Assembly: GCF_018860565.1 (NCBI RefSeq)
Contig: NZ_JAHKPS010000013.1
Location: forward strand, 122,413 to 186,412
Reading direction: 5' to 3'
DNA from: Winogradskyella psychrotolerans
GTDB taxonomy: Bacteria; Bacteroidota; Bacteroidia; Flavobacteriales; Flavobacteriaceae
DNA length: 64,000 bases
The notes under the pieces were generated by a model that worked only from the letters and a program-made list of their open reading frames with translations, was not told where the DNA came from and did not search any database. Shown in pieces: positions 33,523-36,663 of the stretch (its first letter is position 1; the number at the start of each line of letters is the position of its first letter). The translations under genes were made by a program, and so were the position numbers.

Positions 33523-33544
33523 AAACATACTAACTAGTATTTTT
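33523..33544. promoter_or_regulatory. Candidate TetR operator upstream of tetR
   Basis: AAACATAC (33523-33530), 6 bases, GTATTTTT (33537-33544): an inverted repeat with 7 of 8 matches. It sits just before the -7-like box TATATTTG (33549-33556) and 16 bases before the tetR start. Its layout is the same as that of the site at 34169-34190. Confidence 0.6.
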
Positions 33545-33560
33545 TATATATATTTGTGTT

Positions 33561-34163
33561 ATGGAACAAAAACAAAAATCCGAACTCACCAAACAAGTAA
33601 TTCTTAACGAGTCTTTTAAATTGTTCTATAGAAACGGGTTTAAAACGACTAGTATTGACAAGATTATGAAAGCAACTAATCTTACCAAAGGTGCTTTCTA
33701 CTATCATTATAAAAACAAAAAAGAACTCGGTGTAGAAGTTATTAGTTCTAAAATACAAAAGCGAGTTTATGACGGTATGATTACGCCATTGTATCAGGAT
33801 GGAAATGCTTTAGAAATTTTAGAAGATACATTTTCAAGACGATTAAAATCATTTTCATTGTTTGATAAGCAGCACGGCTGCCCAATGAATAACTTTATTA
33901 ATGAAATTGCAGATGAAGAAGAAGCTTATCAAATCGCTTTAAAGCGAATTATTGAAGAATGGAAGGCTGCTTTAATTCATTTAATAGAAAGAGGAAAAAA
34001 GGAAAACACAATCAATAAAAAATACGCAAACAATGCTATTGCTATTTATTTAATCAGTGCTTTTGAAGGCATCAGAGGTATTAGAAAATTATATAATGAT
34101 GATGATATTTTAGACGATTATATTTTGGGACTACAACTATATATCGACCAATTAAAAGCTTAA
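33561..34163 (+). CDS. TetR/AcrR-family transcriptional regulator
   Basis: 200 residues. The N-terminal TetR helix-turn-helix (about 8-58) has FYRNGFKTTSIDKIMKATNL and TKGAFYYHYKNKKELG, a textbook recognition helix. The C-terminal ligand-binding half is helical with a conserved-looking CPMNNFINEIADEEEAYQIA. The gene is first in a row with a Tat-exported HAD hydrolase, an SDR and a lipoprotein. A matching palindrome stands before both it and the HAD gene, so it probably represses itself and those genes. The inducer is unknown. Confidence 0.92.
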   Translation: MEQKQKSELTKQVILNESFKLFYRNGFKTTSIDKIMKATNLTKGAFYYHYKNKKELGVEVISSKIQKRVYDGMITPLYQDGNALEILEDTFSRRLKSFSLFDKQHGCPMNNFINEIADEEEAYQIALKRIIEEWKAALIHLIERGKKENTINKKYANNAIAIYLISAFEGIRGIRKLYNDDDILDDYILGLQLYIDQLKA

Positions 34164-34168
34164 TTACC

Positions 34169-34190
34169 AAACATACCATATAGTATGTTT
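34169..34190. promoter_or_regulatory. Candidate TetR operator upstream of the HAD gene
   Basis: A perfect inverted repeat AAACATAC (34169-34176), CATATA, GTATGTTT (34183-34190), in the gap between tetR and the HAD gene (start 34203). A near-consensus -7 box, TATGTTTA (34184-34191), lies inside the right arm, so binding would block an internal promoter. Confidence 0.65.
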
Positions 34191-34202
34191 ATAACAAAAA
34201 AA

Positions 34203-35006
34203 ATGACCACAAACAACAGAAGAAATTTTATTAAAAAATCTGCAATTTTAGGTTTAGCAGGAGCCACCATTCCACAATTTGGGTTTTCGGCCAATACTGA
34301 AGATCAAAATGTAACACCCCAAAATTTAACTCGCCCAAAAGTCTTATTCTTTGACGTCAATGAAACATTACTAGACCTTACGGCAATGAAAGAAAGTGTA
34401 GGTAAGGTTTTAGGTAATAGAAGTGATTTATTACCATTATGGTTTACTACTATGCTACAATATTCATTAGTTGAAACAGTAGGAAGACAATATAATGACT
34501 TTGGAATTGTGGGTGCAGCAGCTTTACAAATGGTTGCAGCAAACCATGGCATTACAATTTCTGAAGGCGATGCAAGAGAAGCTATATTAGGACCAATACG
34601 CTCACTGCCTGCACACCCTGAAGTCAAACAAGCTTTAGGTGAATTAAAGCGTGCCGGTTATAAATTAGTATCGTTTACAAACTCTTCTAATAAAGGTGTA
34701 GAAACACAATTTAAAAATTCTGGATTATTAGATTATTTTGAAGAACGCTTAAGCATTGAAGCCATGGGCAAATTTAAACCGCATTCTGATGCTTACGATT
34801 GGGCTGCTCGAAAAATGAAAATTAAACCAAGCGAATGTTTATTAGTTGCAGCTCATGGATGGGATATTGCAGGTGCCATTTGGGCTGGATGGAGAGGTGC
34901 TTTTGTTAGCAGACCAGGTGCACAATTATATCCTTTAGCACCAACACCAGAAATTAACGAACCAAATTTAAAATTAATAGCGGAACAATTAATCACTCTA
35001 AAATAA
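34203..35006 (+). CDS. Haloacid dehalogenase type II with Tat signal
   Basis: 267 residues from start MTTNNRRNFIKKSAILGLAG; a Met at 34185 lies inside the operator and adds six residues. The N-terminus is a Tat signal (twin Arg, then a hydrophobic stretch, cut near FGFSA). The HAD motifs follow: FFDVNETLLD (nucleophile Asp), SFTNSSNKG (motif II), KFKPHSDAY (Lys) and VAAHGWDIAGA (motif IV). The order and the DVNETL form fit L-2-haloacid dehalogenase types, which release halide from haloacids; the real substrate is uncertain. The SDR gene follows 7 bases later. Confidence 0.88.
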   Translation: MTTNNRRNFIKKSAILGLAGATIPQFGFSANTEDQNVTPQNLTRPKVLFFDVNETLLDLTAMKESVGKVLGNRSDLLPLWFTTMLQYSLVETVGRQYNDFGIVGAAALQMVAANHGITISEGDAREAILGPIRSLPAHPEVKQALGELKRAGYKLVSFTNSSNKGVETQFKNSGLLDYFEERLSIEAMGKFKPHSDAYDWAARKMKIKPSECLLVAAHGWDIAGAIWAGWRGAFVSRPGAQLYPLAPTPEINEPNLKLIAEQLITLK

Positions 35007-35013
35007 AACAACA

Positions 35014-35748
35014 ATGACCCTAGAAAATAAAGTTATCATCGTGACAGGTGCTTCAAGAGGCATCGGTAAAGAGATTGCTATTCAATTAGCAAAAAATGGT
35101 GCTAAAGTTGTTGTAAATTATTCCAATAGCTCTAAAGAAGCTAAAGAAACGGTAGATACAATCACCAAAAATAACGGATCAGCAATCGCAATTAAAGCCG
35201 ATGTTAGCCGTAAAATAGATGTCACAGAATTATTTGATAAAACCATTTCAACTTATGGCAAAGTAGATGTATTAGTAAATAATGCTGGTGTTATGATTTC
35301 AAAACAATTAAAAGATAACACAGAAGACGATTTTTCAAAACAGTTTGATATTAATGTAAAAGGAATCTTTAATACTTTACAAGAAGCATATCACAAGTTA
35401 TCAGACAACGGAAATATCATTAATATTTCTTCAAGTACAGTAAAACTAATGTTTCCTACTTACGCATTGTATTCAGCTTCAAAAGCTGCTGTTGAACAAA
35501 TGACACGTGTCTTTTCTAAAGAAATTGGCAGAGGAATATCTGTAAATGCTCTTGCGCCTGGCGCTACTGAAACAGAACTTTTTATGAAAGGTAAATCTCA
35601 AGAATTTATTGACAAACTTAGTAATATGAATGCCTTTAACAGACTTGCACAGCCTTTAGACATAGCAAAAGTTGTCTTATTTTTAGCTAGTGACGATTCT
35701 AAATGGATCTCTGGTCAAGTTATTGGTGCCAATGGTGCATTGGTGTAA
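35014..35748 (+). CDS. SDR-family oxidoreductase
   Basis: 244 residues of the classical SDR type. It has the NAD(P)-binding TGASRGIGKE (about 9-18), NNAGVMI (about 88), a catalytic Ser in NIINISSSTVK, and YSASKAA (Tyr and Lys). The Asn-Tyr-Ser after the second strand (VVVNYSNSSKEAK) points to NADP preference. It resembles 3-oxoacyl reductase-like dehydrogenases, but the substrate cannot be given. It starts 7 bases after the HAD gene and belongs to the TetR-linked group. Confidence 0.92.
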   Translation: MTLENKVIIVTGASRGIGKEIAIQLAKNGAKVVVNYSNSSKEAKETVDTITKNNGSAIAIKADVSRKIDVTELFDKTISTYGKVDVLVNNAGVMISKQLKDNTEDDFSKQFDINVKGIFNTLQEAYHKLSDNGNIINISSSTVKLMFPTYALYSASKAAVEQMTRVFSKEIGRGISVNALAPGATETELFMKGKSQEFIDKLSNMNAFNRLAQPLDIAKVVLFLASDDSKWISGQVIGANGALV

Positions 35749-35823
35749 TATTTAAAAGCTTTAACAAATTTACAATCCCTTAAAATACTTTATTAAAACA
35801 ACCACTAGAACAAAACATACCTA

Positions 35824-36663
35824 ATGAAAATCCACACACTAACAATTATGACCTGCTTAGTTTTAAGCGCTTGTAATACTAACAGTTCAAAAACAGAAAC
35901 TGAAGCTAAAAAACCCGAAACTAAAACAGAAAAAGCAAGCAAAACATTTGAGAATAAAGGACATGAATTAGTTTATAACCTCACTCAAAAAACAGGGAAT
36001 TACCAAACACTTCTCAATAAAAAAGATGTGGTTTACACCTACACCTACCAAACTCCAAATGGAAAAAAAGATGTGAGTACTGAAAAATACATCTTTAACG
36101 GTGAGTTATCTTACGGTGCTTATACACAACACGAAAGAACTCTTCCTAATCTCGAAGGATTAATTGAACAAGGTTATGATGGTAAAGCGTTTTGGCTAAA
36201 ACATAATAAAACCATACTAAACGACACCACCTATTTGAAGCGTGTAGCTTTTAACAGACCAACAAATTTTTATTGGTTTGCTATGATGCCCAAACTTTTA
36301 GACCCTGGATTACAATATGACTATCTAGGTGATATCAAAATAGATGAAAAAGATTATGATATTGTAAAAGTATCTTTTACTTCAGAAAACGATAAACCTA
36401 CAGATATTTACCAAATCTATATCAATAAAAAAACGCAATTAATAGATCAATTTCTTTTTACTGTTGCAGATTTTGGCGCTATGGAAACTCCTAATTTAAT
36501 GCGATTGGAATACGAAAAAATTGATGGTATTTTAATTCCAACCAAACGAAAGTACAAAAAATCTAATTGGAATGCTGAAGTAACAGAACTACCATGGATA
36601 CACGTTAATTGGACTAATATTACGTTTAACAATAATTTGAAAATAGAAGATTTTCAAAAATAA
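35824..36663 (+). CDS. Lipoprotein, DUF6503-like
   Basis: 279 residues. The lipobox ends in VLSAC, Cys at residue 17, followed by a Lys/Glu/Thr-rich linker. The mature region (about 45-275) is a beta-rich domain (GHELVYNLTQKTGNYQTL, YTYTYQTPNGKK, YQIYINKKTQLIDQFLF) resembling LolA/LolB-like lipoprotein-sorting folds, and I recall the flavobacterial name DUF6503. A half-site AAACATAC at 35813-35820 lies immediately upstream, without a second arm. It may belong to the TetR-linked group. Confidence 0.8.
   Translation: MKIHTLTIMTCLVLSACNTNSSKTETEAKKPETKTEKASKTFENKGHELVYNLTQKTGNYQTLLNKKDVVYTYTYQTPNGKKDVSTEKYIFNGELSYGAYTQHERTLPNLEGLIEQGYDGKAFWLKHNKTILNDTTYLKRVAFNRPTNFYWFAMMPKLLDPGLQYDYLGDIKIDEKDYDIVKVSFTSENDKPTDIYQIYINKKTQLIDQFLFTVADFGAMETPNLMRLEYEKIDGILIPTKRKYKKSNWNAEVTELPWIHVNWTNITFNNNLKIEDFQK

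Follow-up and report, generated by a model that had tools for sequence, protein, structure and literature searches.

The window analysed here, the whole 64,000-nucleotide stretch of Winogradskyella psychrotolerans DNA, contains a tetR gene followed on the same strand by genes for a haloacid dehalogenase with a twin-arginine (Tat) signal (HAD), an SDR-family oxidoreductase and a lipoprotein (Table 1). The TetR protein matches TetR_N (PF00440) at 41.3 bits (cut-off 24) and, in its C-terminal part, PF16925 at 37.7 bits (cut-off 27), and its AlphaFold2 model (mean pLDDT 95.7) has the TetR fold. The HAD scores 162.5 bits against TIGR01428 (curated cut-off 125.4) and its nearest solved structures are Zobellia (S)-2-haloacid dehalogenase entries and the L-haloacid dehalogenase 2yml. 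The listed ORF for HAD opens inside O2, at 34185; the ATG at 34203 is the likely start and is preferred, since the ATG within the operator is in frame with HAD in only 2 of 39 relatives. We infer that the SDR gene belongs to the same operon as HAD. The lipoprotein gene, which adjoins SDR in 11 of the 14 loci named Winogradskyella, is probably part of it too; a fold search with its product returned LolA-like matches with TM scores below 0.6 and gave no function.

Table 1. Features of the tetR-HAD locus, with positions in the window
Feature	Position	Strand	Basis
Putative operator O1 in the tetR promoter, AAACATAC-N6-GTATTTTT	33523..33544	+	Pattern search and footprint
tetR -7 box TATATTTG, Bacteroidetes-type	33549..33556	+	By eye; conserved in 53 loci
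tetR, TetR-family repressor, 200 aa, single cysteine C107 (codon 33879-33881)	33561..34163	+	Pfam, AlphaFold2
Putative operator O2 at the tetR/HAD junction, perfect 8+8 palindrome	34169..34190	+	Pattern search and footprint
Candidate HAD -7 box TATGTTTA inside O2, weak	34184..34191	+	By eye
Tat-signal haloacid dehalogenase type II (HAD)	34203..35006	+	TIGR01428; structure matches; twin-arginine motif
SDR-family oxidoreductase	35014..35748	+	PF13561; synteny; 7 bp after HAD
Lipoprotein	35824..36663	+	LBF_0142-family match below cut-off; LolA-like fold matches

The first-pass annotation described two palindromes of the same spacing, one in front of tetR and one between tetR and HAD, and their coordinates, 8-base arms and 6-base spacers are all borne out: O1 (AAACATACTAACTAGTATTTTT) pairs at 7 of its 8 arm positions and O2 (AAACATACCATATAGTATGTTT) at all 8. 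The pattern AAACATAC-N6-GTATKTTT is not matched anywhere else in the window (expected 0.00; 0 in 100 shuffles), and its two forward matches in the whole genome (3,895,670 bases) are O1 and O2, the reversed control giving 0. With the Y-N4-R centre of the consensus that is described below, the next-best site in the genome has 2 mismatches; allowing up to 3 mismatches yields 17 sites (O1 and O2 counted) as against 20 for the reversed control. Because the exact pattern occurs solely at O1 and O2, with an empty reversed control and relaxed sites that do not rise above theirs, chance is excluded for the pair. Exact sites are confined to the tetR locus and are not frequent at random positions in the genome, in keeping with the operator role first proposed for them.

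A genome-contig scan for the TetR protein found 52 loci, 45 of them (L033-L077) with a close relative at 63-88% identity; in the remaining 7 the DNA-binding part alone matches, at 27-38%. The close relatives come from Winogradskyella, Lacinutrix, Zobellia, Arenibacter, Cellulophaga, Aureibaculum, Tamlana and other Flavobacteriia and, further out, from Crocinitomix, Cyclobacterium and Algoriphagus. Among 397 sampled genomes of the family, 20 have a TetR match of at least 54% identity, the window's own genome counted. (Two genomes of the same genus, G157 and G338, have no tetR match at E <= 1e-20, though more distant genera carry the gene.) The footprint was drawn from 65 loci with a TetR of at least 53% identity, from which 10 with a duplicate tetR start were removed; the consensus of the 55 non-identical loci that are left is the 22-bp AAACATAC-Y-N4-R-GTATGTTT. 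Since L077 is without a tetR start and L058 without downstream DNA, each site is counted over 54 loci and the two together over 53.

Conservation at orthologous loci, the comparison put forward along with the operators, is what these relatives display. Upstream of tetR a site of O1 type, with at least 14 of 18 consensus bases, is found in 53 of 54 loci, and the best sites of all 54 lie 35-41 bp before the ATG. At the junction a site of O2 type, with at least 15 of 18, starts 4-19 bases past the tetR stop codon in 49 of 54 loci and is weak or absent in 5. A shuffle control gave 21/2700 at threshold 14 and 2/2700 at threshold 15. Because these shuffles preserve nothing but base composition, and because the loci tested are also those that supplied the consensus, the column scores are the better evidence: the arms carry 1.78 and 1.77 bits and the flanks (30 bases either side) 0.40-0.81, in tables that omit the upstream site of L071 (12/18) and the five junctions where the site is weak or absent. 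Variation is greater at the central bases than in the arms, as is expected for the spacer of a dimer site. The junction site is also kept in 8 loci whose first gene after tetR is not HAD, and is therefore not part of the HAD gene. Loci L023-L032, with a TetR below 53%, stand outside the footprint count and their sites were scored separately. At 44-46% identity there are four TetRs, of which L024 alone shows both sites at their usual positions; L023, L025 and L026 have no site at either position, with 15/18 matches at other upstream distances. Conservation of the sites fades beyond the close TetR group. Within that group the arrangement is shared among related marine bacteria; it is therefore probably a genuine switch, and we are highly confident in assigning the twin palindromes as putative operators of this TetR.

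TAnnTTTG is the consensus of the Bacteroidetes -7 box. Ahead of tetR the full consensus is present in 41 of 53 loci and TAnnTT(T/C)(G/A) in all 53 (the last matching box before the ATG being taken); the box ends 3-5 nt before the ATG throughout, and 4 nt before it in 46 loci, the window included. With so short a distance, a leaderless mRNA is probable for tetR. The gap between O1 and the box is 1-7 bp in 53/53 loci, so that the original placement of O1 beside the tetR -7 box extends to all of them. By sequence and position, then, a palindromic putative operator adjoins the regulator's own promoter, as is characteristic of TetR-family repressors. It is very likely that the protein represses rather than activates. 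The promoter of HAD is another matter. A near-consensus -7 box had been read in the right arm of O2, and the candidate is indeed there, but in many relatives it is not conserved: over 48 rows TA is kept in 29, TAnnTTT in 26 and full TAnnTTTG in 1, TA being lost in 19. A run of at least 6 T shortly past the tetR stop, at about the position of a -33 element, is present in 41 of 53 loci and absent in the window (34164-34168) and in L043, in both of which O2 lies closer to the stop. The poorly kept box and the missing T-run make transcription of HAD less clear than was first written; read-through from tetR into HAD is possible.

A palindrome between two co-oriented genes might be mainly an RNA hairpin, serving as a terminator or processing site, with its likeness to the promoter site secondary, and 25 of the 49 junction sites are able to pair at all 8 arm positions. 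We consider this very improbable. The same sequence also stands ahead of the tetR promoter box, where all arm pairs are intact in only 3 of 53 copies; pair 7/16 is broken, without compensation, in 19 of the 49 junction sites (A-A in 18), and is A-A or T-T in 19 of 53 sites on the tetR side; and the T-tract precedes the palindrome instead of following it. Across the 8 arm pairs there is one compensated cell in the junction set and one in the tetR-side set. One-sided arm changes that are hardly ever compensated agree better with a protein half-site than with an RNA stem, and a terminator or hairpin at the junction is disfavoured on account of pair 7/16 and the wrong-sided T-tract. As protein sites, O1 and O2 differ at position 19, which is T, not G, in 44 of 53 tetR-side sites and G in 48 of 49 junction sites. 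This difference suggests that O1 would be the weaker, autoregulatory site and O2 the stronger target site. A trade-off of strength between the two was considered and not adopted: G19 in O1 coincides with an O2 that is weak or missing (5/6 versus 4/47, Fisher p 0.0002), but about two genera (Aureibaculum and Mariniflexile) supply all five of these loci, and L008 and L017 contradict it, which leaves a hint.

How far does the operator reach? Exact sites in the 397 family genomes number 21, of which 11 belong to this TetR, 9 to a second TetR subfamily or its neighbours and 1, in G102, could be assigned to neither (all site-to-locus assignments across these genomes were made by hand). Allowing at most one mismatch raises the number to 66 sites, spread over 52 of the 397 genomes, where the reversed control has 33 sites in 32 genomes. 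By locus, the 66 divide into 26 at this TetR (including one where the TetR identity is 46%), 11 at the second subfamily and 29 elsewhere, a number that does not exceed the control, so that a wider regulon is rejected. Sixteen of the 20 genomes with a TetR of at least 54% identity have such a site near tetR, the others being G002, G063, G119 and G212. The second subfamily (L028-L031, L107-L110, L161), only 33-36% identical to this TetR, has the same operator; the recognition helices of the two are nearly identical (TKGAFYYHF and TKGAFYYHY). Its neighbours (by Pfam for L031, the remainder by eye) include DUF3817, rhodanese and a membrane protein with a below-cut-off match to DUF2871. In G019 and G100 a rhodanese-type gene is found at separate operator sites. 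Since the second subfamily has the same sequence, the operator is not private to this TetR. The small regulon of the first-pass annotation is borne out in that the sites stay within the locus; the operator itself is the mark of a class of regulators and not of a single protein. Given so similar a helix and the same operator, O1 and O2 could be bound chiefly by another TetR paralogue, with cross-talk between circuits. This is very improbable, because at E <= 1e-20 the window's genome contains a single match to this TetR, and O1 and O2 are its only exact sites.

A lone half-site ahead of the lipoprotein gene had also been drawn into the regulon. It is present (AAACATAC at 35813-35820), but the window has 5 such half-sites as against 4.55 expected, 3 of the 5 inside the two palindromes; a count at chance level gives the lone one no weight. 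Nor is it conserved: ACATAC precedes the lipoprotein gene in 3 of 22 rows: the window, the closely related L043, and L024, in which it is the junction operator itself. On these two grounds a third operator is rejected. The genes after tetR in relatives are HAD, SDR and sometimes the lipoprotein. HAD follows tetR directly in 42 of 54 loci, window counted, and SDR, the lipoprotein or another gene comes first in 12. AhpC/TSA and DoxX-family genes (one of the two DoxX groups below cut-off) are added in some relatives and an alpha/beta-hydrolase gene in L008; these extras fit a response to reactive compounds.

The HAD was annotated from the outset as a Tat substrate, and relatives support this prediction of export. 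A twin-arginine RRxF lies near the HAD start in 48 of 48 orthologous loci (some of which duplicate one genome) as well as in the window, and RRxFxK in 47 of the 48, L076 having RREFIN; the genome encodes TatC and the HAD N-terminus has, by eye, a hydrophobic stretch. Sixteen of the sampled family genomes encode a HAD whose alignment begins in the Tat region (query residue 1-4) and contains no internal stop; 14 of these genes adjoin this tetR, those of G121 and G274 lying in a different neighbourhood. The nearest studied relative is ZgHAD of Zobellia galactanivorans (PDB 7arp), a HAD1 enzyme that is 46% identical over 208 residues; identity between the HAD1 and HAD2 clades is given as 40-45% (PMC8490876). 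The nine active-site residues of group B dehalogenases, D-T-F-S-K-Y-A-H-D (PMC8490876), can be placed by eye in the window's HAD. ZgHAD is reported to dehalogenate bromo- and iodoacetate and to protect against both; unlike the window's HAD domain with its preceding Tat signal, it is predicted to be cytoplasmic (PMC8490876). The main text of that paper does not contain the word TetR, although its supplementary genomic-context figure may show the tetR neighbourhood, and none of the literature matches listed deals with this TetR, with its operator or with an L-2-haloacid dehalogenase exported by the Tat route. A further HAD gene of the window's genome (L131, G000:C28:420114-420806) lies in a group with DSBA-family and EthD genes and an AhpD-like-looking gene (no Pfam match); its product is 65% identical to the window's HAD and lacks the length for a Tat signal. 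No operator was found at this group. Similar groups in relatives adjoin a different TetR (L144; L148 by eye) and sometimes include, by eye, a window-like lipoprotein (L150, L151) or AhpC-like genes (L154, L155).

What might release the repressor? The only cysteine of the TetR protein, C107, is placed by the confident model where one helix gives way to the next across a break. Of 74 aligned rows 72 have Cys at this position; L032 has Ser, and L027, probably read out of frame, shows gaps. BLASTP aligns C107 with C106 of E. coli NemR (21% identity over 145 residues), the residue reported to sense hypochlorite (PMC8748444, PMC7464077); the electrophile response of NemR is ascribed to C21 and C116 and its hypochlorite response to C106 (PMC3739934, PMC7464077). 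K176, invariant in 46/46, matches by counting only NemR K175, the proposed partner of C106, the BLASTP alignment ending at 152. That the only cysteine aligns with NemR C106 makes an electrophile or haloacid signal plausible; a Gly-Cys-Pro motif is, however, also present in the TetR structures 3qbm and 3eup, of unknown role, so C107 may be structural. By analogy, the likeliest class of signal would be a haloacid, another thiol-reactive electrophile or a halogen oxidant, acting at or near C107, a suggestion that we make tentatively. A quite different signal is also conceivable, and deserves to be taken seriously: a non-covalent, SDR-related ligand (ketone, aldehyde or quinone) that has nothing to do with halogens, the HAD acting on some other exported substrate. 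TetR proteins usually bind their ligands in a C-terminal pocket, which counts in its favour, and SDR rather than HAD follows tetR in several of the 12 loci without HAD as first gene, so that the signal may be an SDR substrate; the best NCBIfam score of the TetR is to AcuR, an acrylate regulator, although at 72.5 bits it is far below the cut-off of 247. The placeable dehalogenase residues and the 42 loci with HAD directly after tetR count against this alternative.

E. coli NemR-nemA-gloA is like the present system in the TetR fold (4yze, Z 19.9, rmsd 2.4, 190 aligned), in having the regulator gene first, in a 6-N4-6 palindrome of the same geometry just before nemR (TAGACC-GACT-GGTCTA), in the alignment of the two cysteines and in target genes that are reported to detoxify reactive compounds (PMC7464077). 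It is unlike it in overall sequence, in the six cysteines reported for NemR (PMC7464077) as against one here, and in its half-site (TAGACC versus CATACY); here there are, moreover, two operators and a predicted exported enzyme. Neither nemA nor gloA is found beside this tetR, whose neighbours are HAD and SDR (both in the window), lipoprotein, DoxX-family, AhpC/TSA and other genes. The second comparison is with Pseudomonas CifR-cif. CifR, which also has the TetR fold (6nsm, Z 17.8, rmsd 2.8, 191 aligned), is described as a repressor that is released by reactive (epoxide) substrates of the enzyme under its control (PMC8244358); that enzyme, Cif, is reported to be secreted, and two binding sites for CifR are announced in the title of Ballok 2012. 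In contrast, CifR is only 14-15% identical in structural alignments, the gene order is divergent, and an epoxide hydrolase takes the place of the haloacid dehalogenase.

The mechanism that these comparisons suggest would run as follows. A TetR dimer would bind O1 and O2 and block RNA polymerase; at O1, with its conserved imperfect right arm, it would limit its own synthesis, and at O2, the near-perfect palindrome, it would repress the HAD-SDR(-lipoprotein) transcript. A small reactive molecule would alter the repressor so that both sites are released, and the exported L-2-haloacid dehalogenase and the cytoplasmic SDR would be made. The proposal of the first-pass annotation that the TetR represses itself together with an exported HAD and SDR is strongly supported by footprint conservation, position and synteny. 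A repressor that controls itself and the HAD-SDR(-lipoprotein) operon, with a haloacid, thiol-reactive electrophile or halogen oxidant as its class of signal, is as a whole a likely reading, the class of signal taken by itself having the tentative standing given above. An elaboration that we think rather unlikely, in which haloacetates or halogen oxidants formed around seaweeds would change C107 chemically and open two unequal operators, has the periplasmic dehalogenase destroying haloacid before it gets to the cytoplasm, with the unlinked cytosolic paralogue guarding the inside.

The circuit is probably real, is conserved and is of an ordinary-looking TetR type, and its target is unusual; the parts of interest are the predicted exported dehalogenase and C107. 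An exact and testable predicted operator is now available for a regulator that is widespread in marine flavobacteria, and this regulator is tied to a class of enzyme that has been linked to bromo- and iodoacetate tolerance (PMC8490876). If the signal is a haloacid, regulator and operator would make a ready-made biosensor, and the system would hint at a way for bacteria that live with algae to detect toxic halogen compounds. Export of the dehalogenase would, in addition, bear on the question of a haloacid uptake system that is raised in PMC8490876.
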